Source: Dehalococcoidia bacterium (GTDB lineage: Bacteria > Chloroflexota > Dehalococcoidia > Tepidiformales > Tepidiformaceae). Taken from it: 64,000 nt of DNA. Where the stretch lies: the NCBI GenBank assembly GCA_020432045.1, contig JAGQHB010000004.1, positions 62,001 to 126,000 on the forward strand. The letters run 5' to 3'. Of this stretch, positions 49,330 through 60,054 are shown one piece after another (position 1 is the first letter of the stretch; each line of letters opens with the position of its first letter). The translations under genes and the position numbers were made by a program. The notes beneath the pieces are model-generated. The model was not told the origin of the DNA, did not search any database, and saw nothing but the letters and a program-made list of their open reading frames with translations.

Positions 49330-50532
49330 TCACGCGAGCCCGAGAGGCGCCAGGACCTTATTCATGTAGAGGTCCAGTGATTTCGAAATCGCGAGGGCAG
49401 GCATCAGGCCGTTGTACTGCCAGGCCATCACATACGTGAGCGGCAGCCGTTCGAGCGTCTGTTCGACCTGGCGCCGCACCGTCTCAGGGCTACCTACCCA
49501 CATCAGCCCCCGCTCGTGCATCACCTCGGGCGTGACGGAGCGCGGGTCCTCTCCCGGGTGCGGGATCGCCCCGCCAAAGCCGAATGGCGCGAACCAGGCC
49601 GCGCCAACGAACGCGGCACTCTCCCGCCAGTACGCCCACGCTTCCTCGTCGGTGTCCGCGACGATCACGTCGCGAAGGACGCCGATCCCTTCACCGGGGG
49701 CGATACCGCGGCCAGCGGCCACCGCTTCGTCGTGGTACGCGTCGAAAAGAAACGACTCGAGTCCATCGTTCACGGGTGCCAGGATCGGCTGCACTCCCTG
49801 TCGCGCACACCACCGGATCGTCGATTCGCTGAAGCTGAATGGCTGCATGATGGGCGGATGCGGCTGCTGGAGGGGCCTCGGGACAACACCGATCTCGCGC
49901 ACGACGCCGCCCTCGGCACCGCGGCCCATCGTTTGCGTCGATTCGACGGTCCAGGGGATGCCCGGGGGCGGGATCTTCCAGAACTTGCCCTCGTAGCTGA
50001 ACGTATCGTTCGTCCAGGCCATCCGGACGATTTCGAAGAACTCCTCGAAGGCGGCGCGGTTGACACGGTCTACCTCCGCATCACGGTCTTTCGACGGTGC
50101 GGCGTGGACATCGTGGTACTGCTGCGCCAGCGTATCAACCCAGCGGCGTTGATAGCCACGGGCAAAGCCGGCGAACGCCCGTCCGCCGCTCATGTGGTCG
50201 AGCATTGCGATGTCTTCGGCGACACGCAGCGGCGAGTGAGCCGGAAGGACAATTCCGAGCTGTCCGACCCGGATCCGCTTCGTATGGAGCGCGACGTACG
50301 TATCGAGCAGCACCGGGTTGTTCGATAACTCAAAGCCTTCGACGTGGAAGTGGTGCTCGGTGAAAGCAATTGCGTCGTATCCAAGGTCATCGCCAACCAC
50401 GGCCACGTCGCGGATGTCGCGAAGCATGGTTTGGTACGCGTCGTTGTCGCGCCCTGCCATCCCTGCCAGCATTCGACGCCGGTCGCCGACAGATGGAAGG
50501 AAGAAGATGCCGGTCTTCAGCGCAGGACTCAT
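49330..50532 (-). CDS. LLM-class flavin-dependent oxidoreductase
   Basis: A 400-residue luciferase-like monooxygenase or F420/FMN-dependent oxidoreductase. The barrel opening KTGIFFLPSVG is followed by DDLGYDAIAFTEHHFHVEGF, IRVGQLGIVLPAHSPLRVAEDIAMLDHMSGGR and GFARGYQRRW, all standard for the family. Cofactor (FMN or F420) and substrate are not decided. The ATG at 50532 has no ribosome site but lies 7 nt after TATAAC, so it may be leaderless; upstream residues are not conserved. It stands alone, divergent from the hypothetical membrane protein gene. Confidence 0.88.
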   Translation of the reverse strand: MSPALKTGIFFLPSVGDRRRMLAGMAGRDNDAYQTMLRDIRDVAVVGDDLGYDAIAFTEHHFHVEGFELSNNPVLLDTYVALHTKRIRVGQLGIVLPAHSPLRVAEDIAMLDHMSGGRAFAGFARGYQRRWVDTLAQQYHDVHAAPSKDRDAEVDRVNRAAFEEFFEIVRMAWTNDTFSYEGKFWKIPPPGIPWTVESTQTMGRGAEGGVVREIGVVPRPLQQPHPPIMQPFSFSESTIRWCARQGVQPILAPVNDGLESFLFDAYHDEAVAAGRGIAPGEGIGVLRDVIVADTDEEAWAYWRESAAFVGAAWFAPFGFGGAIPHPGEDPRSVTPEVMHERGLMWVGSPETVRRQVEQTLERLPLTYVMAWQYNGLMPALAISKSLDLYMNKVLAPLGLA

Positions 50533-50670: not shown

Positions 50671-51108
50671 ATGGCAGACCGCATCGAACGCGAGATCAAC
50701 GAGATCCTGGAGAAGCTCGACGAGCTGCCTGAAGATACGGCCGTGCCCGAACGCGCACCCATCTCCATCGCGGAGCGCCGGGACCGCAAGGTAGACAGCG
50801 CGCCCGGCCGGTCACTGAACATCAGGCTCCCAAAGCTCAACACTACGGCGGCCCTGCTCACGGGCGCTGCCACTGTCATCGGCGGGCTCATACTTTCGAC
50901 GTTCTGGGCGCCTCTCGTCTGGGCTGCTTTCGGAGGGGTCGTGATCTTTCTTGCGGGCTTCATCGCCGCGCTCGTCAAGACCCCGCGGCCCGGAAAACAG
51001 GCGCCGCCCGGTGGCCACTTCTGGCGGGACCGCTATATCCAATACTCCCAGCCACAACAGGGGTCAGCTAGGACGTGGACGAAGCTCAAACGCCGCCTTC
51101 GCCGTTAA
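50671..51108 (+). CDS. Hypothetical membrane protein
   Basis: A 145-residue protein, not recognised. The acidic N-terminal helix (ADRIEREINEILEKLDELP) is followed by a polar linker and a hydrophobic hairpin of two membrane helices (about 65-115: ALLTGAATVIGGLILSTFWAPLV and AFGGVVIFLAGFIAALV), then a basic tail (LKRRLRR). The ATG at 50671 has GAGG 7-8 nt upstream; an ATG at 50641 lacks this. The N-terminal part looks like short proteins of the same kind seen in other Chloroflexota, but I cannot name a function. Confidence 0.7.
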   Translation: MADRIEREINEILEKLDELPEDTAVPERAPISIAERRDRKVDSAPGRSLNIRLPKLNTTAALLTGAATVIGGLILSTFWAPLVWAAFGGVVIFLAGFIAALVKTPRPGKQAPPGGHFWRDRYIQYSQPQQGSARTWTKLKRRLRR

Positions 51109-51162
51109 GGGCTCTGACCCGGTTCACGGCCGCTTAACTGCGCTGGGACGTAGTCTCTGACT

Positions 51163-52497
51163 GTGCACGCTCGCTACCTGTTTACGATTGGCGCTGCCCT
51201 CATCGCCTTCGCTGCGGCCGGCTGTTCGGACCGCGGCACCGCTGACCTCGTCACGACCACGGCCACGAACGAGCCATCCTCCACAGCCACGGCCACAGCA
51301 ACCACAGGCGCACCAGCGTCGCCATCTGCCACGCCGGCCCATGCCGCAGATTCCGCGTTCGATGGCGACGCTGCCTTCGCACACATCCGGCAACTCGCCG
51401 TCGCGATCGGGCCGCGCGTCTCCGGCACGGCTGCGGAAACGGCCACGGTGGACTACATCAAGCATGCATTCGAGGCGGACGGCTACACCGTCGAGCAATT
51501 CGCATTCGCGTTTCAATCCGACCCGTTCCGTGCGGCAACCGTCGAGGCAGCCGGGGAACCGATCGAAGCGTTCGCCATGACCGGCAGCGGCGGGGGCGAC
51601 GTCTCCGCGGCAGCCGTCGACATCGGCCTCGGCGACACCGCCGGTGTGGCCGGGAGAGACCTTTCCGGCAAGATCGCCATCGCTGCCAGGGGCACGCTGC
51701 GGTTCGCGGAGAAGCTTGCCAACGCCAGGTCAGCCGGTGCCATCGCGCTCATCGTGGCCAACGACCGTGAGGGCGATTTTGTCGGCAACCTCACGGGAAG
51801 CACTGATGTCCCCGTGGTCAGCGTTAGCTCTGATTCCGGCGACCGGCTTCGCGCAGCGGCTGCTTCTGGGGGGACCATCCGTGTCGTCGTCCCACCGGGC
51901 ACGTCCACGGGATCGGTCGACGTCATCGCCCGTCCGTCGGCGGGTGCCCGCTGCGACATCGTTGTCGGCGGCCACCACGACACAGTCCCGGGAGCGCCTG
52001 GAGCCCACGACAACGGCAGCGGGACCGGGATCGTCCTGGAGCTTGCCCGCGTGTTCGCGACAGACGGACTCGACCCGGGACTGTGCTTTGTCACCTTCGG
52101 CGCCGAGGAATCGGGGCTCAACGGAAGCAGGGCCTGGGTCGAGACGCTCACCAGGGCGAATGCACTGCCCCGGGTAATGGTAAACATCGACGCGATCGGC
52201 GTCGGGACGAAAGTGCAGCTCATCGGGACAAGCGAACTCACATCAGACGCGCTGGCCCTGGCAAATGCGATGGGTATCGCCGCGGAACAGACGGAGCTGG
52301 GCGCGGGGTTCGGGAGTGACCACCAGAGCTTCGAAGCAGCCGGGGTCGAGGTCATCTTCTTCGCCAGCGATCAACTCGGGTTCCTGCACACGCCACAGGA
52401 CACCATTGATTCGCTTGACCGGCCGGTCATCGACAACGGCGGTGCGCTTGCCGAAGCAACGATCCGGGCGCTGCTCAAGCGGTTTGCCGGTGGCTAG
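51163..52497 (+). CDS. M28-family metallopeptidase lipoprotein with PA domain
   Basis: A 444-residue secreted zinc aminopeptidase-type protein. A lipoprotein signal (LIAFAAAGC, Cys21) and a Thr/Ala-rich linker precede it. The protease-associated insertion (LSGKIAIAARGTLRFAEKLANARSAGA) lies at about 165-200. Zinc ligands are visible: VVGGHHDTV (His), GAHDNGSGTG (Asp), FGAEESGLNGS (Glu-Glu), and FLHTPQDT (His). It starts with GTG at 51163; no strong ribosome site. The LysM lipoprotein gene starts 14 bp downstream. Confidence 0.88.
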   Translation: MHARYLFTIGAALIAFAAAGCSDRGTADLVTTTATNEPSSTATATATTGAPASPSATPAHAADSAFDGDAAFAHIRQLAVAIGPRVSGTAAETATVDYIKHAFEADGYTVEQFAFAFQSDPFRAATVEAAGEPIEAFAMTGSGGGDVSAAAVDIGLGDTAGVAGRDLSGKIAIAARGTLRFAEKLANARSAGAIALIVANDREGDFVGNLTGSTDVPVVSVSSDSGDRLRAAAASGGTIRVVVPPGTSTGSVDVIARPSAGARCDIVVGGHHDTVPGAPGAHDNGSGTGIVLELARVFATDGLDPGLCFVTFGAEESGLNGSRAWVETLTRANALPRVMVNIDAIGVGTKVQLIGTSELTSDALALANAMGIAAEQTELGAGFGSDHQSFEAAGVEVIFFASDQLGFLHTPQDTIDSLDRPVIDNGGALAEATIRALLKRFAGG

Positions 52498-52511
52498 GAG
52501 ACAACCATAGG

Positions 52512-53099
52512 ATGACTAGACAGATGAGAATTCAGGTTCTTCTCCTGGCGGCCATCGGCAGCGCAGTAGCGTTCTGGGCAGCGGCCTGTGGCGGCGAGGG
52601 CGATACCGGCGGCACCGGATCCCGGATCACGGATCCGGCCAGCGTCCCGACTTCGACGCCGATTCAGAACCCGGTCACATTCCGGTTCAAGAACGAAGAC
52701 ATCGAGATCGCTGGCGGTGGCACCACCACGGCCGGCAGCGGGTCGAACCAGCCGCAGACACACACGGTGGCGCCCGGAGAAACGTGTGCCGAAATAGCCT
52801 CGCGGTACGGGATCAGTGTCGCCGACCTTATTCGCGTCAATCGCACGATCAACGCGGACTGCACCAACCTGCGGGAAGGCGAAAATCTGCGGGTTCCCTC
52901 CGCAGCACCGACCGCGGCAGCCGGTACGCCCACACCACGGGCAGGCGCCAGCGGCCGCACGCACACCGTCGCCGCGGGCGACACATGTGCCGACATCGCC
53001 GCGTCGTTCGGTGTCACGGTCGAAGCGCTCATCAGCGCGAACGGGCTCGATGCCGACTGCACGAACCTGCAGCTCGACCAGGTGCTCCAGATCCCGTAG
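52512..53099 (+). CDS. LysM-domain lipoprotein
   Basis: A 195-residue lipoprotein. The signal ends in FWAAAC (Cys26). Two LysM repeats lie at about 83-130 (HTVAPGETCAEIASRYG ... NLREGENLRVP) and 151-195 (HTVAAGDTCADIAASFG ... LQLDQVLQIP). Each repeat holds a Cys pair (ETCAEI with DCTNL), which could form a disulfide inside the domain. LysM binds N-acetylglucosamine glycans such as peptidoglycan. It follows the M28 lipoprotein gene closely and may be co-transcribed. Confidence 0.88.
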   Translation: MTRQMRIQVLLLAAIGSAVAFWAAACGGEGDTGGTGSRITDPASVPTSTPIQNPVTFRFKNEDIEIAGGGTTTAGSGSNQPQTHTVAPGETCAEIASRYGISVADLIRVNRTINADCTNLREGENLRVPSAAPTAAAGTPTPRAGASGRTHTVAAGDTCADIAASFGVTVEALISANGLDADCTNLQLDQVLQIP

Positions 53100-53182: not shown

Positions 53183-54319
53183 ATGGACTTCCGGCTTTCA
53201 CCGGCTCAGGCTGCATTCCAACAAGAAGTGACCGCGGTCGCCGACGAACTGGCGGCCCCGGGCGGGCCCGATCTCCGCGCCGACCCCGAGTACAACGAGC
53301 ACGTGCGCATGGAGCTGGCGAAGCGGAAGTGGCTGGCAATGCCATGGCCAAAGGAATATGGCGGTCTTGGGGCCTCCCCCATGCAACAGATGCTTTACAA
53401 CGAGACGATGTCCTACCGGCGCGTCCCGGCCGGCAATATGGGCGTCTGGTGGGTTGGCCCCGCGCTTATTCTCTATGGAAACGACGAGCAGAAGGAGCGC
53501 TTCCTCCCGCGCATTACGAACGGCGACGATGTCTGGTGCACCCTGTATTCGGAACCCGGCGCGGGCTCAGACCTTGCAGCCCTGCAGACGCGTGCCGTGC
53601 GGGACGGGGACGACTACATCATCAACGGCCAGAAGATCTGGACTTCGGGAGCGCACCGGTCGAACTGGGGTTGGCTGGCCGCGCGCACCGACCCCGACGC
53701 GCCGAAGCACCGTGGCATGTCGATGTTCTGCGTTCCGATGGATGCGCCGGGACTCAGCATCCGGCCACTGGTGAACATGACCGGCAACCACGAATTCAAT
53801 GAAGTGTTTTTCGACAACGTACGCGTCCCTGCGACGCAGCGTGTCGGCGAAGAGAATCGGGGCTGGTACACCCTGGCCGTCGCCCTGGACTTCGAACGAT
53901 CGTCAATCGGCTCGACCGCAGGCGCACACCGAACGATCGATGATTTCGTCGAACTCGTGCGTTCCGGGCGCGCCGTGCTCACCGAGCAAACGCGAAACCG
54001 CCTGTCGGATTGCGCGATCTCGGTGCAGGTGCTTCGGTTCATCGGTTACCGCATCGCTGCTGAGCAGGAGCAGACGGGGATCGCGCCGACGCTCCTCGCG
54101 CAGATGGCAAAACTCTCAGCGATGGAACTCAACCAGAAGATCAGCAGCATGACGATGCAGGTGCTGGGTATGGAGGGCCAGGCTCACCCGGCCGACAGTG
54201 TTGCCGAGGCCTATACCCACGCCTTCCTGCGTTCGGTGGCGAACACCATCGAGGGCGGAACCAGCGAAATTCAACGGAACGTCATCGCTACGCGAGGATT
54301 GGGCCTCCCGCGCGGATAA
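53183..54319 (+). CDS. Acyl-CoA dehydrogenase
   Basis: A 378-residue flavoprotein of the acyl-CoA dehydrogenase family. It has the N-terminal helical domain, the FAD-binding middle region (WCTLYSEPGAGSDLAAL; YIINGQKIWTSGA) and the C-terminal helical domain ending in EGGTSEIQRNVIATRGLGLPR. The position of the catalytic Glu varies among subfamilies and I did not fix it, nor the substrate chain length. The ATG at 53183 has GGAG upstream (ggcgaggagc). The two CaiB/BaiF genes nearby on the other strand also use acyl-CoA. Confidence 0.92.
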   Translation: MDFRLSPAQAAFQQEVTAVADELAAPGGPDLRADPEYNEHVRMELAKRKWLAMPWPKEYGGLGASPMQQMLYNETMSYRRVPAGNMGVWWVGPALILYGNDEQKERFLPRITNGDDVWCTLYSEPGAGSDLAALQTRAVRDGDDYIINGQKIWTSGAHRSNWGWLAARTDPDAPKHRGMSMFCVPMDAPGLSIRPLVNMTGNHEFNEVFFDNVRVPATQRVGEENRGWYTLAVALDFERSSIGSTAGAHRTIDDFVELVRSGRAVLTEQTRNRLSDCAISVQVLRFIGYRIAAEQEQTGIAPTLLAQMAKLSAMELNQKISSMTMQVLGMEGQAHPADSVAEAYTHAFLRSVANTIEGGTSEIQRNVIATRGLGLPRG

Positions 54320-54345
54320 ATGGCCCCCGGGACCGGCAGCTACGC

Positions 54346-54558
54346 CTACACGACTGCTCGTAAGTGCGCACGGTCAAATCGCGGCTGAACTTTCGATACG
54401 ACGCGGTCGAGGTTGACCCCGAGGTCCGTGGTCGCAGCCTCAAGCGTCCAATCTAGATAGCGCGGCGATATACCGAAATCGGCCAGATCAAGGATCACGC
54501 CGGGCTCGGCCCGGACGATATCGATGACGCGGGCACTGCGGAGTTCTGCTGTAATCAT
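54346..54558 (-). CDS. Small DUF542-like protein
   Basis: A 70-residue protein. The ATG at 54558 has a near-perfect ribosome site, GGGAGGTGA, at about 6-nt spacing, so a real gene is likely although it is short. The sequence RVIDIVRAEPGVILDLADFG, then ISPRYLDWTLEAATTDLGVNLDRVV, resembles the small helical DUF542/DUF1858 fold, found at the N-terminus of the iron-sulfur repair protein ScdA/YtfE. The usual Cys pair is absent. A TATACC box lies upstream (near 54587-54592, minus). The role is unknown. It lies between the acyl-CoA dehydrogenase gene and the CaiB genes. Confidence 0.6.
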   Translation of the reverse strand: MITAELRSARVIDIVRAEPGVILDLADFGISPRYLDWTLEAATTDLGVNLDRVVSKVQPRFDRAHLRAVV

Positions 54559-54727
54559 CCTCTTCACCTCCCTTGGCCTCTCACTGGTATAGACGCTGCT
54601 CGTGTACGAATTGTTGCGAGCACGTTGCGTTGTCATGACGCAGGTAACCTGTGAGGAGCCTGATGTCCCCCACCGAACATCGGCTCTTACAGTAGCGTGC
54701 AGCAGGTGAAGTCCCGGGAATACAGGT

Positions 54728-55936
54728 TCAGACGAGGGATGCACGCAACTCAACGGTATGTTCGCCGAGCTTCGGCGCCGGGCGGCGGAGCTCCCAGGGA
54801 GTCGCACTGAACCAGTAAGGCGGTCCGGGCATCGCCGCCGGTTCCGTAACATCCTCGCCCGTCACCTTGACGAAATGTCCACGGTCCCAGAAGTGCGGAT
54901 CGTCGAGTGTCTCTTCCGGGCTGCGGACGGTACCCCAGGCCTGATCGCGCTCTTGGCCCCCCCGGTACACCGATTCACCCGGTTGTGACGCTACAAACCG
55001 CGCGACCTCGGCATAAACCTCGGACGCTTCGGCCGACCCGCGACCCGGCTGGCGGGACGCAGGAGAGTCAAATCGCTCTTCATCGAAGTTCATCCCAAAC
55101 CCGAACGACTGGAACCATTGCTTCAGCTTTCGCCAGCTCGAGTTGTCCCGGCCGATGCCGAACAGGATGAGGTCGCGTCCGTCGGCAGCGTGGACAAGCC
55201 AGCGTTCCGTCCGCCGGGCGGATGCATGCCGGGCAGTCTGGCGTACAACGTCCTCGCGGGCGTAGAGGTAGTACGGCATGCCGACCTCGACGGTGCAGCT
55301 CAGCGCTTCATGCATCGAGCAATCGACGTACTGTCCCCGGCCGGTGCGGTCCCGGAAGAGGAGCGCGGCAAGGATGCCGTGCGCGGCGTAGTGGCAGACC
55401 GTGTTGTAGCCCTGGTCACCGTGGCCGCGGATCGGCGGTGCCCCGGGGGCATCTTCCGGGTCGTAGCCGTTCATCATCATCGGGCCGCCAAGGGCAAGGC
55501 CGACGAGGTCCGACGATTTGTATTGCGCCCAGGGGCCATCCTGCCCGAACGGAGTGATCGAGCAAACGATCAGGCCCGGATGGTTCGCGGAGAGATCCGC
55601 GTAGCCGAGGCCAAGCGCGGCGAGGGCGCCGGGTGCCCGGTCTTCAATGACGATGTCCGCCGTGGCGATGAGCTTGCGGAGCACCTCCCGGTCCGCATCG
55701 TCGCTTTCAAAATCGAGCACCAGCGATCGCTTGTTGGTGTTGTGGTACCAGAAGTTCAGGGAGCGGTTGGGTGCCGGGACATCGCGGACGAAAGGCCCGA
55801 CGGTCCGCGCCGATGAACCGGCCGGCGGTTCGACTTTGATGACGTCAGCGCCCATGTCCGCGAGCAGCTTCCCCGCGTACTGGCCAAGTTCGTCGCAGAT
55901 CTCGACGACTCGGATGTCGCTCAGCGGTCCACTCAC
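54728..55936 (-). CDS. CaiB/BaiF-family CoA-transferase (second of pair)
   Basis: A 402-residue class III CoA-transferase. The N-terminal region shows IRVVEICDELGQYAGKLLADMGADVIKVEPP, RSLVLDFES and ITPFGQDGPWAQYKSSDLVGLALGG, all typical; the later YVDCSMHEAL fits the family. These enzymes move CoA between carboxylic acids through an Asp-bound intermediate. Its start overlaps the stop of the other CaiB gene by 4 bp (ATGA), so it is downstream of that gene and coupled; the two may form a heteromer, as in BbsEF. The substrate is unknown. Confidence 0.88.
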   Translation of the reverse strand: MSGPLSDIRVVEICDELGQYAGKLLADMGADVIKVEPPAGSSARTVGPFVRDVPAPNRSLNFWYHNTNKRSLVLDFESDDADREVLRKLIATADIVIEDRAPGALAALGLGYADLSANHPGLIVCSITPFGQDGPWAQYKSSDLVGLALGGPMMMNGYDPEDAPGAPPIRGHGDQGYNTVCHYAAHGILAALLFRDRTGRGQYVDCSMHEALSCTVEVGMPYYLYAREDVVRQTARHASARRTERWLVHAADGRDLILFGIGRDNSSWRKLKQWFQSFGFGMNFDEERFDSPASRQPGRGSAEASEVYAEVARFVASQPGESVYRGGQERDQAWGTVRSPEETLDDPHFWDRGHFVKVTGEDVTEPAAMPGPPYWFSATPWELRRPAPKLGEHTVELRASLV

Positions 55937-57168
55937 ATCAGCACCCCCATGGCCTCGTGCTCGGCAATCTCTTCATCTGTCATGCCCACAACCTCCCGGA
56001 GCACCTCGTGCGTGTGCTGGCCGAGCGCCGGCGCAGCCCGCTGCAGACTCCCCGGCGATTCGGAGAGCTTCGGCAGGACGCCGTCGTACTCACTTGGGCC
56101 GATCTCGGCGTGGTCGAGGACGTGCCACCAATCCCGGGACCGGAGCTGCGGATCGCGCTCATAGCGGTCAGATGCTCTCTGGCACACGCCGGCCCGAACA
56201 CCGGCCGCCTGCAATACCTCCATGGCGGCGTAATCGGTCATCGTGCTCGTCCATTCGGCGATGCGCGCATCGAGTTCGTCTTCGTTCGCGATTCGACCAG
56301 CGTTAGTGGCCCATTTCGGGTCTGCCGCCCATGCGGGCTCATCCATCGCCAGGACGATCGCCTGCCACTCGGCATCGTTCATGCAGGCAATGGCCAGCCA
56401 TCTGTCCTCGCCTGTGCAGGGGTAAGCGCCATGCGGAGCCACTTTCGGTTCCCAGGCCCGGTTGCCGGGCGGCATCCCCTCGCGGCGCCACTTCCGGCCA
56501 TTGACGGTGTAATCGAGGATAGCCGGGCCGTTCAGGACAATCCCGCCCTCGACCTGAGACATGTCGATGTGCTGACCCTCGCCGGTCCGGTTGCGGTGGT
56601 GGAGTGCCATCATGATCGCGACTGCAGCCTCATAACCGGCCGTGTGGTCCATGAAACTGTATCCCCAGCCCGCGGGCGGCTTCCCCGGAAGGCCGGATGT
56701 GTAGGTGAGGCCACCCAGTGCCTGCGCAGTCGGCCCCCACGTCGTGAAGTCCATGTCCCTGCCGAAGTGGCCGAACCCGGAAATCGAGCAGTAGATGATT
56801 TTTGGATTGATCTCCTTCAGCTGAGGGTAATCGAGGCCCCAGTTCGACATGATCCTGCTGGAGAAGTTCTCCACCACTATGTCGCTTTCTGCGATGATCT
56901 TCTTGACCACCTCGAACCCCATGGGGTGGCGGACGTTGAGTAGGACGCTGCGCTTGTTACGGTTGATGTAGTTGAAGAAGCCGCTGTTGTTGTAGGTCGG
57001 CGCATCGCCAACGATCGGGCGGCCCATCCGGACCGAGTCAACGGCTTGCGCGTGTTCGATGCGGATTACATCCGCGCCGAAGTCCCCGAGCACCCGCGTG
57101 CAGGTGGGGCCGGCGATGATCCAGGTGAAGTCACAGACGCGGATGCCCGCGAGCGGTTGGTCAGTCAT
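55933..57168 (-). CDS. CaiB/BaiF-family CoA-transferase (first of pair)
   Basis: A 411-residue class III CoA-transferase. It has IRVCDFTWIIAGPTCTRVLGDFGADVIRIE at the N-terminus, KRSVLLNVRHPMG and ISGFGHFGRDMDF, and HIDMSQVEGG. It begins with the ATG at 57168; a longer reading to 57210 lacks family similarity. Its end overlaps the second CaiB gene by 4 bp. Two adjacent, divergent-in-sequence CaiB genes suggest a two-subunit enzyme. Possible use is activation of a carboxylic acid for beta-oxidation, but this is inference. Confidence 0.88.
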   Translation of the reverse strand: MTDQPLAGIRVCDFTWIIAGPTCTRVLGDFGADVIRIEHAQAVDSVRMGRPIVGDAPTYNNSGFFNYINRNKRSVLLNVRHPMGFEVVKKIIAESDIVVENFSSRIMSNWGLDYPQLKEINPKIIYCSISGFGHFGRDMDFTTWGPTAQALGGLTYTSGLPGKPPAGWGYSFMDHTAGYEAAVAIMMALHHRNRTGEGQHIDMSQVEGGIVLNGPAILDYTVNGRKWRREGMPPGNRAWEPKVAPHGAYPCTGEDRWLAIACMNDAEWQAIVLAMDEPAWAADPKWATNAGRIANEDELDARIAEWTSTMTDYAAMEVLQAAGVRAGVCQRASDRYERDPQLRSRDWWHVLDHAEIGPSEYDGVLPKLSESPGSLQRAAPALGQHTHEVLREVVGMTDEEIAEHEAMGVLM

Positions 57169-57344
57169 GCGCGGGATTCTACGCCCGAACGGCCGGCCGT
57201 CGAACAGCACCGGCCACGTCAGACCACCAGGCAGATATTCGCCCGTGCGTCCGGCAGCGAGACACCAATCGCACGTACGGATTTGAGATTTCTCTATCCG
57301 GTCGCCTACGATCGAAGCAACTAACGAACGAGGTATCCCAGCGT

Positions 57345-59080: not shown

Positions 59081-59890
59081 TCAGGGATGCAAACGCGGGA
59101 ACTGTCCGGGCTTCCGGCCTTCTCCCGGCGGCCCAGCAAACGTTTGCGCGAATTCGAGCCACTCCTCGGCGGCCGCGCCTTCGTAAGCGAGGTCCGTGTC
59201 GTTGTGATGCCTCCGCCGTGTCGCCACCTGGCAGAAGTCCAGCGCCGTACCGGTGATGCGGTTCGGTGCATTCACCTCCCCAAAGACCATCAGCTCGCCC
59301 GATGGCAGCCGCAGCTCAACGCGGACGGGTTCCGTGTTGGCCTCAAGTCCGCGCGTCGCATACGAGTAGTTCCGGGTGCGGACGCCGAGGAAGACGATGT
59401 GACGCAGCCGGTCGGAAGGCGCGCGCTTGAATGCCACCACATCCTCAACATCGAGGCCGTGGGACCAGCATTCCATCAGCCGGGCAGTGATGAACGAGGT
59501 CGCCGCCATCGGCGGCCCGTACCATGGCATCCGCCGCGACGGGTCGAGCGAGCGAGCCGCATTGACGAGTGCCGAACTCGCACGGCGCCACCAGCTCAAC
59601 AGTTCCGCGTGGGGAAGTTCGCGCGCCCGGATGATGTACGGGAACTGGCCGTCCACAACACGAGAGCCGCCACCAGCCTTTGACTCCGCCACGAACGCCG
59701 CTTCGTCCACCATCGCGAGGGTTGCGGCCTCGTCGACGTTTGCGAGATGCGCGACCTGGTCCCGCACAGTCCAGCCAGGCGCGTGTGTTGGCCGTTCAAG
59801 GTCATCGGGGCCCAGGGCGTCCAGCATCTCGGCAAACGAAGCGTGTTCGAGTGCAAGGTCGTCAACGATTTCGCGGTAGGCATCGCTCAT
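59081..59890 (-). CDS. TIGR03084-like (mycothiol-maleylpyruvate isomerase/DinB fold) protein
   Basis: A 269-residue protein. The N-terminus FAEMLDALGPDDLERPTHAPGWTVRDQVAHLANVD is the classic MDMPI/DinB-superfamily four-helix core with the first metal His; ITARLMECWSHGLDVEDV holds the other ligand region. The whole length fits the TIGR03084 family, of unknown function. The ATG at 59890 is the natural start; a longer reading to 60022 would run through the tRNA gene and is rejected. It follows the ADH gene's start by 86 bp on the same strand. Confidence 0.85.
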   Translation of the reverse strand: MSDAYREIVDDLALEHASFAEMLDALGPDDLERPTHAPGWTVRDQVAHLANVDEAATLAMVDEAAFVAESKAGGGSRVVDGQFPYIIRARELPHAELLSWWRRASSALVNAARSLDPSRRMPWYGPPMAATSFITARLMECWSHGLDVEDVVAFKRAPSDRLRHIVFLGVRTRNYSYATRGLEANTEPVRVELRLPSGELMVFGEVNAPNRITGTALDFCQVATRRRHHNDTDLAYEGAAAEEWLEFAQTFAGPPGEGRKPGQFPRLHP

Positions 59891-59977
59891 ATCAGGGCTC
59901 CCGGACTGTTGTGAGCGCACGATACAACGGCGGCCCTGCATCTGGCCGCACGCAAACAAATCCGGGAGGGGTTGAAA

Positions 59978-60054
59978 TGGTCGGGGCGCGGCGATTTGAA
60001 CGCCGGACCTCCTGAACCCCATTCAGGTGCGCTACCAGGCTGCGCTACGCCCCG
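59978..60054 (-). tRNA. tRNA-Pro (anticodon GGG)
   Basis: Read from 60054 down, all four arms form without mismatches: acceptor CGGGGCG/CGCCCCG, D stem GCGC/GCGC, anticodon stem CCTGA/TCAGG with loop ATGGGGT (anticodon GGG, followed by G), T arm CGGCG-TTCAAAT-CGCCG. The C1-G72 pair and A73 fit tRNA-Pro. CCA is encoded at 59980-59978. The tRNA body is 74 nt. Confidence 0.96.

Follow-up and report, generated by a model that had tools for sequence, protein, structure and literature searches.

A small cysteine-free protein with a predicted ScdA_N/DUF1858-type fold, often encoded behind a family III CoA-transferase gene pair in Tepidiforma-related Dehalococcoidia

The locus

The stretch of DNA analysed, 64,000 nts long and termed the window here, carries on its minus strand two genes for CoA-transferases of family III followed by a small gene. 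From 5′ to 3′ on that strand the features are:

55933..57210, minus strand: caiB1, CoA-transferase family III, 425 amino acids from GTG 57210; closest structure 9FN0 chain B
54728..55936, minus strand: caiB2, CoA-transferase family III, 402 amino acids; closest solved structure 9FN0 chain A
54564..54571, minus strand: Shine-Dalgarno sequence GGAGGTGA, 5 nts ahead of the small-gene ATG
54346..54558 including the stop, minus strand: small gene, ATG start, 70 codons plus stop; subgroup A (see below), with GISPRYLDWT at residues 29-38

The caiB pair lies upstream of the small gene and on the same strand, and its two genes overlap by 4 nts. To judge from relatives of 411 amino acids, ATG 57168 appears likelier as the start of caiB1 than GTG 57210. 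The spacer between caiB2 and the small gene has 169 nts (54559..54727, minus strand), and neither a terminator-like nor a sigma-70-like site was found within 54250-54800.

A reading made from the sequence alone had proposed a real gene of 70 residues with a ribosome site. That proposal is borne out, though the span given for it, 54346-54592, covers the gene and adds 34 nts upstream of its ATG. The GGAGGTGA 8-mer is present twice in the window against 2.4 copies expected by chance, so that the weight it carries comes from its position at the start codon and not from rarity. The small gene was chosen by the gene caller and its codon score is positive (+10.9, natural-log odds, from an in-frame model whose training set was 33 long ORFs of the window). 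Among the 177 other frames between 60 and 85 amino acids long, 5 score higher, and codon bias alone is therefore modest evidence. It is the comparative evidence that is decisive: the 19 homologues described below, and a dN/dS that spans 0.04-0.64 over 11 pairs and is less than 0.5 for 10 of them (several dS values being saturated), confirm that the small gene is real and conserved. Inspection by eye reveals a purine-rich Shine-Dalgarno-like stretch upstream of most of the homologues.

A family of small proteins

An initial search of the genome contigs with the small-protein sequence gave no matches. An alignment-profile search of the 38 genomes of the window's family, a Tepidiforma-related lineage of Dehalococcoidia, matched 21 genomes. 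Two of these were dropped, G013 for a CC-bearing ScdA_N protein and G011 for a match of E 8.8e-4 within a 265-amino-acid frame, as was a second weak match in G029. This leaves 19 carriers among the 38 genomes and 20 clear members, the window protein and 19 homologues from 18 other genomes. They are 61-81 amino acids long, have a net charge of −1 to +4 (−1 for the window protein) and are 13-61% identical to the window protein. Four residues, R16, G29, A42 and G47, are invariant. The tree of the 20 proteins separates subgroup A (5 rows, the window protein among them) from subgroup B (15 rows) with support of 100/99. Subgroup A has GI[S/G]PRYxxWT in all five rows, and in subgroup B the column of Arg33 is Asp or Glu in 15/15. 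Members of subgroup B occur in the genus Tepidiforma, for example at L154.

Beyond the family, a profile designated A1 matched 35 of 294 genomes of the class at E of 0.01 or less, 17 in the family and 18 outside it (the latter at E of at least 1.8e-4). Profile A2, at E of 1e-3 or less, matched 11 of 400 genomes of the phylum, and of the 6 inspected G000, G012 and G017 hold true members. Its matches in G013 (the CC-bearing ScdA_N protein) and G386 (a C..C DUF1858-like protein) are not members, and that in G413 (3.3e-4) resembles, on inspection by eye, an rRNA methyltransferase and would be a false positive. Since the class and phylum searches scored 14-20 candidates per genome, members outside the family are possible.

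A search of open-licence literature on ScdA_N/DUF1858, small proteins with CaiB, BbsEF and Tepidiforma turned up nothing on this protein family. In a Tepidiforma paper (PMC10284905), CaiB and CoA-transferase are absent from the text.

Predicted fold and distant homology

The sequence-only reading had called the product DUF542-like. As to fold and distant homology this stands, but as to Pfam membership it does not. The window protein matches no Pfam family at E up to 10, an NCBIfam scan is also empty, and searching the sequences of the PDB with a profile brought up nothing but helical chains that are designed or unrelated. Pfam matches of the family as a whole are sparse: 4 of 20 members match ScdA_N (PF04405; gathering score 32.5 bits) with a best E of 5.3e-4, two of them scoring 15.1 and 17.1 bits, and 3 of 20 match DUF1858 (PF08984; gathering score 32.2 bits) with a best E of 0.026, below the cut-off in all those scanned. 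TIGR03980 is matched, also below its cut-off, by 3 of 12 members (best E 0.063). Failing the gathering scores, the window protein is not a formal member of ScdA_N or DUF1858.

Comparison of profile with profile (hhalign) detects the relationship. The family profile aligns to ScdA_N with a probability of 94.5 and a score of 38.1, against 15.2 for the best of 200 column shuffles and 10.4 for the reversed profile; for DUF1858 the values are 93.5 and 36.6, against 18.3 and 7.2. Subgroup A alone matches ScdA_N with a probability of 95.6 and subgroup B alone with 72.8. The ScdA_N and DUF1858 profiles match each other with a score of 59, far above that of either with the small-protein family, and the family is thus a distant branch. 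The protein in G013, the only genuine ScdA_N found in the family's genomes, is the next-best match of the profile (6.4e-5).

The same relatives emerge when the window protein is modelled with AlphaFold2 (pLDDT 90.4, pTM 0.75). In VIA alignments the model superposes on 2k53 (Z 10.8, rmsd 1.6, 66 residues), on YtfE residues 2-64 in 5fnn (Z 9.8, rmsd 2.1, 62 residues), on 2k5e (Z 9.2, rmsd 4.5, 68 residues) and on 2fi0 (Z 6.2, rmsd 2.6, 61 residues), with the next row at Z 3.0; as a Z of less than about 13 may reflect an arrangement common in helical bundles, weight is given to the drop in Z between these structures and the rows that follow, and to the profile comparison, which is independent. 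For a subgroup B model (pLDDT 80.8) the same structures lead, with Z of 5.0-8.4 and the next at 3.7. Foldseek also has 2k5e and 2k53 at the top (probabilities 1.00 and 0.99, E 0.27 and 0.39, with none at 0.001 or less). The DUF1858 profile matches 2fi0, 2k53 and 2k5e, and that of ScdA_N matches ScdA/YtfE chains. By structure prediction, together with the profile homology, the small protein has the ScdA_N/DUF1858 fold and is a distant homologue of both.

With ScdA_N/DUF542, the domain at the N-terminus of YtfE and ScdA, the small protein has in common its length, five short helices, their order and the profile match. It differs in being standalone and single-domain, with no hemerythrin domain, and in having Arg33-Tyr34 at the Cys-Cys position. 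The C-terminal hemerythrin-like di-iron domain of the RIC proteins (YtfE/ScdA) is missing, as the frame ends at residue 70. The DUF1858/TIGR03980 domain (prismane_assoc, redox disulfide) has the same fold and also has small standalone members, but the loop after the conserved Gly is shorter in the small protein and the genomic setting is different.

The missing cysteines

The 70-residue product is free of Cys, as the sequence-only reading had stated. When the profiles are aligned, Arg33-Tyr34 falls at the Cys-Cys that 12/12 of the ScdA_N rows used have, and the window protein does not have the DxCCGG motif. No member has Cys at the motif columns (0/20), and the four Cys that the 20 proteins contain are all elsewhere. 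The same reading had taken the absent pair as a hint of a new role. In 9 of 11 aligned DUF1858 rows from the same class the loop is without Cys, so that Cys loss is not unusual, nor in itself new, in the superfamily. One of these nine (L082, 301-1713) is a 74-amino-acid standalone DUF1858 protein that starts 3 nts after the gene for a DUF438-hemerythrin-PAS protein. Within the same class there is thus a precedent for encoding a small module that lacks Cys immediately after a larger protein.

The CoA-transferase pair

The best match of CaiB1 is chain B of 9FN0, benzylsuccinate CoA-transferase (3.3e-80), and that of CaiB2 is chain A (8e-54). The catalytic Asp188 of CaiB1 has its counterpart in the Asp of chain B of 9FN0 and is conserved in 30/30 rows, those of the G014 and G020 loci being missing because of cut contigs. 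At this column CaiB2 is aromatic (Tyr in 30, Phe in 1 and Trp in 1 of 32). An invariant Asp is present three residues earlier in CaiB2, and the aromatic column is thus no proof of inactivity. Chain A of 9FN0 is likewise aromatic at the catalytic-Asp column, with its partner keeping the Asp, and in the BbsEF-type enzyme, as here, two different family III subunits are encoded side by side. The matches to the two chains and the Asp/aromatic column make it likely from sequence that the enzyme encoded by the caiB pair is heteromeric, one of its subunits being active and the other inactive. For bbs operons, a third gene of small size is not known to us.

Genomic setting and presence pattern

A search of 61 genomes with CaiB2 gave 32 close relatives at 54% identity or more (the next is at 50%; the cut was set after the gap was seen). 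Scanning named records for CaiB2 gave 21 loci, in, for example, 'Dehalococcoidia bacterium' and 'Tepidiforma sp. KatS3mg062'. That homologues might adjoin CaiB genes had been put forward for checking, and they do: in 17 of the 32 caiB-pair loci a small gene is downstream of caiB2 on the same strand. The distance between the two is 72-376 nts in 16 of the 17. At the other (G024, L139 3294-5008) a gene that looks by eye like a methyltransferase gene is between them. For an AT-rich stretch of G008, the open frames were assessed visually and with the profile. Subgroup A only is present at 3 of the 17, subgroup B only at 13 and both at one, as if either subgroup suffices behind caiB2. The locus with both (G003, L087 5406-5618 and 5758-5964) has tandem small genes behind caiB2, A and then B. 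This caiB-linked, operon-like location is the new element here.

The association is not universal. The small gene is absent from 13 of the 32 caiB loci, with no clear member elsewhere in those genomes (the weak G011 match being set aside); the G005 contig ends 218 nts past its caiB2 match, and this locus is left out of the count of absences. Two members are apart from the pair. In G016 (L092 8002-8214) the member is far from it, 378 nts before a gene that by eye is probably for an acyl-CoA carboxylase. The closest relative of the window protein (61% identity, in G004) is encoded at a contig edge, with caiB2 not on the visible upstream side, and a close caiB2 was not found in that draft, which is 82% complete. 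On the CaiB tree the presence pattern takes 3 changes without G005, or 4 with it as absent, and fits a single gain with a small number of losses.

Further along the window (50671-53099) are genes for a MADRIEREIEE-type small protein with no Pfam match, an M28 peptidase and a LysM lipoprotein. The block that these form with caiB is conserved across much of the family, including where the small gene is absent, and for this reason part of the association between caiB2 and the small gene is inherited order. At the other loci read, the LysM lipoprotein gene usually faces caiB2 or the small gene directly. The window is different: an acyl-CoA dehydrogenase gene (53183..54319, plus strand) converges on the small gene and parts it from the LysM gene (52524-53099). 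An acyl-CoA dehydrogenase neighbour, which the sequence-only reading had suggested looking for next to homologues, is accordingly peculiar to the window. That reading was right that no hemerythrin partner follows, the next called gene downstream on the minus strand being that of a luciferase-like monooxygenase (49330-50532).

A possible role behind the CoA-transferase

For ScdA_N/DUF1858 relatives, disulfide or metal chemistry has been proposed. With the Cys-Cys turn replaced, in subgroup A by Arg-Tyr and in B by an acidic residue, the small protein, a member of a lineage-specific family, cannot act through thiols as the N-terminal domain of YtfE/ScdA would. This leaves a compact module of helices whose exposed turn is conserved, and which probably acts by interaction with another protein. 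Co-expressed, and probably co-transcribed, with the upstream caiB1-caiB2, it would bind the putative heteromeric CoA-transferase and may thereby tune its assembly, stability or activity. The usual place of the small gene behind the enzyme pair is what suggests such a binding partner. The reading we favour, then, is that the small protein serves the BbsEF-like CoA-transferase, without redox chemistry, as an interaction partner or a regulator. Its probability is put at about 0.4, because the pair is often without the small gene and two members are apart from the pair. With 13 of 32 caiB loci lacking the small gene, the enzyme does not generally need the small protein. Also counting against a partner are the 72-376 nt spacers, which allow a separate promoter, and the synteny, which may mean mere inheritance. 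A closer form of partnership, with the small protein, as a redox-dead module, a third, non-catalytic subunit of the CoA-transferase and the former Cys-Cys turn a contact or ligand site, is unlikely but deserves mention. To our knowledge no other family III CoA-transferase has a subunit of ScdA_N/DUF1858 type, and if there is one here it would be the first such enzyme and a new use of the fold.

Nearly as likely as a partner of the CoA-transferase is a standalone regulator or sensor of DUF1858/ScdA_N type with a different target, the adjacency to caiB2 then being inherited order. The members apart from caiB2 in G016 and G004 fit it, as do the surrounding synteny kept where the small gene is absent and the L082 protein behind its DUF438-hemerythrin-PAS neighbour. 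A role in nitrate signalling proposed for DrpB, a Thermus protein of three domains of unknown function, can be added, DUF1858 being mentioned in the same source (PMC6282519). Such a regulator leaves less well explained that 17 of the 19 carrier genomes keep the small gene behind caiB2, and that in the window the link to caiB2 stays even where the acyl-CoA dehydrogenase gene has split the small gene from LysM. If the regulator were instead a DNA-binding helix-turn-helix protein acting on the caiB operon, the weak Pfam matches of some members to HTH_31 (3/20, best E 0.0063) and HTH_23 (2/20, best E 0.025) would be accounted for. This is improbable, as helix-turn-helix structures reach Z of no more than 3.0 against 9-11 for DUF1858/ScdA_N structures, and the window protein, with its net charge of −1, matches no helix-turn-helix family at E up to 10.

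An iron or redox repair role like that of ScdA/YtfE, with the metal site provided by a partner, is in keeping with the fold common to their N-terminal domain, and the di-iron centre of YtfE does not need the Cys motif according to PMC9268430. The motif Cys are, however, missing in 20/20 members, no hemerythrin gene adjoins the small gene in the window, and no iron-sulfur or nitrosative-stress neighbour was recognisable by eye in the loci read, which together make such a role quite improbable. Least credible of all is a decaying gene or chance frame. Fast divergence (down to 13% identity), several losses on the tree and the one pair with a dN/dS of 0.64 could be cited for it, but the low dN/dS of the other pairs, the intact frames with Shine-Dalgarno-like sequence upstream, the conserved fold and the four invariant residues speak strongly to the contrary.

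For a Cys-free family a putative new role, whether as partner of the CoA-transferase or otherwise, is plausible. Domains of ScdA_N and DUF1858 type occur widely and for the most part lack an explanation, the Cys pair having so far been the main handle on function. A Cys-free family under selection, with a new conserved turn and a candidate partner encoded alongside, makes a non-thiol use of the fold testable. It also raises the prospect that pairs of family III CoA-transferases may be accompanied by accessory proteins whose small size keeps them from being annotated.

Other features of the window

A 168-amino-acid frame from ATG 54852 was considered as the true gene and rejected: it has no Pfam match, would overlap caiB2 and is not needed. 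Tandem repeats were sought and none were found. A search for RNA elements with Rfam gave none but one tRNA gene, elsewhere in the window (59981-60054, minus strand), which overlaps the start of a long ORF reading listed at 59081-60022.
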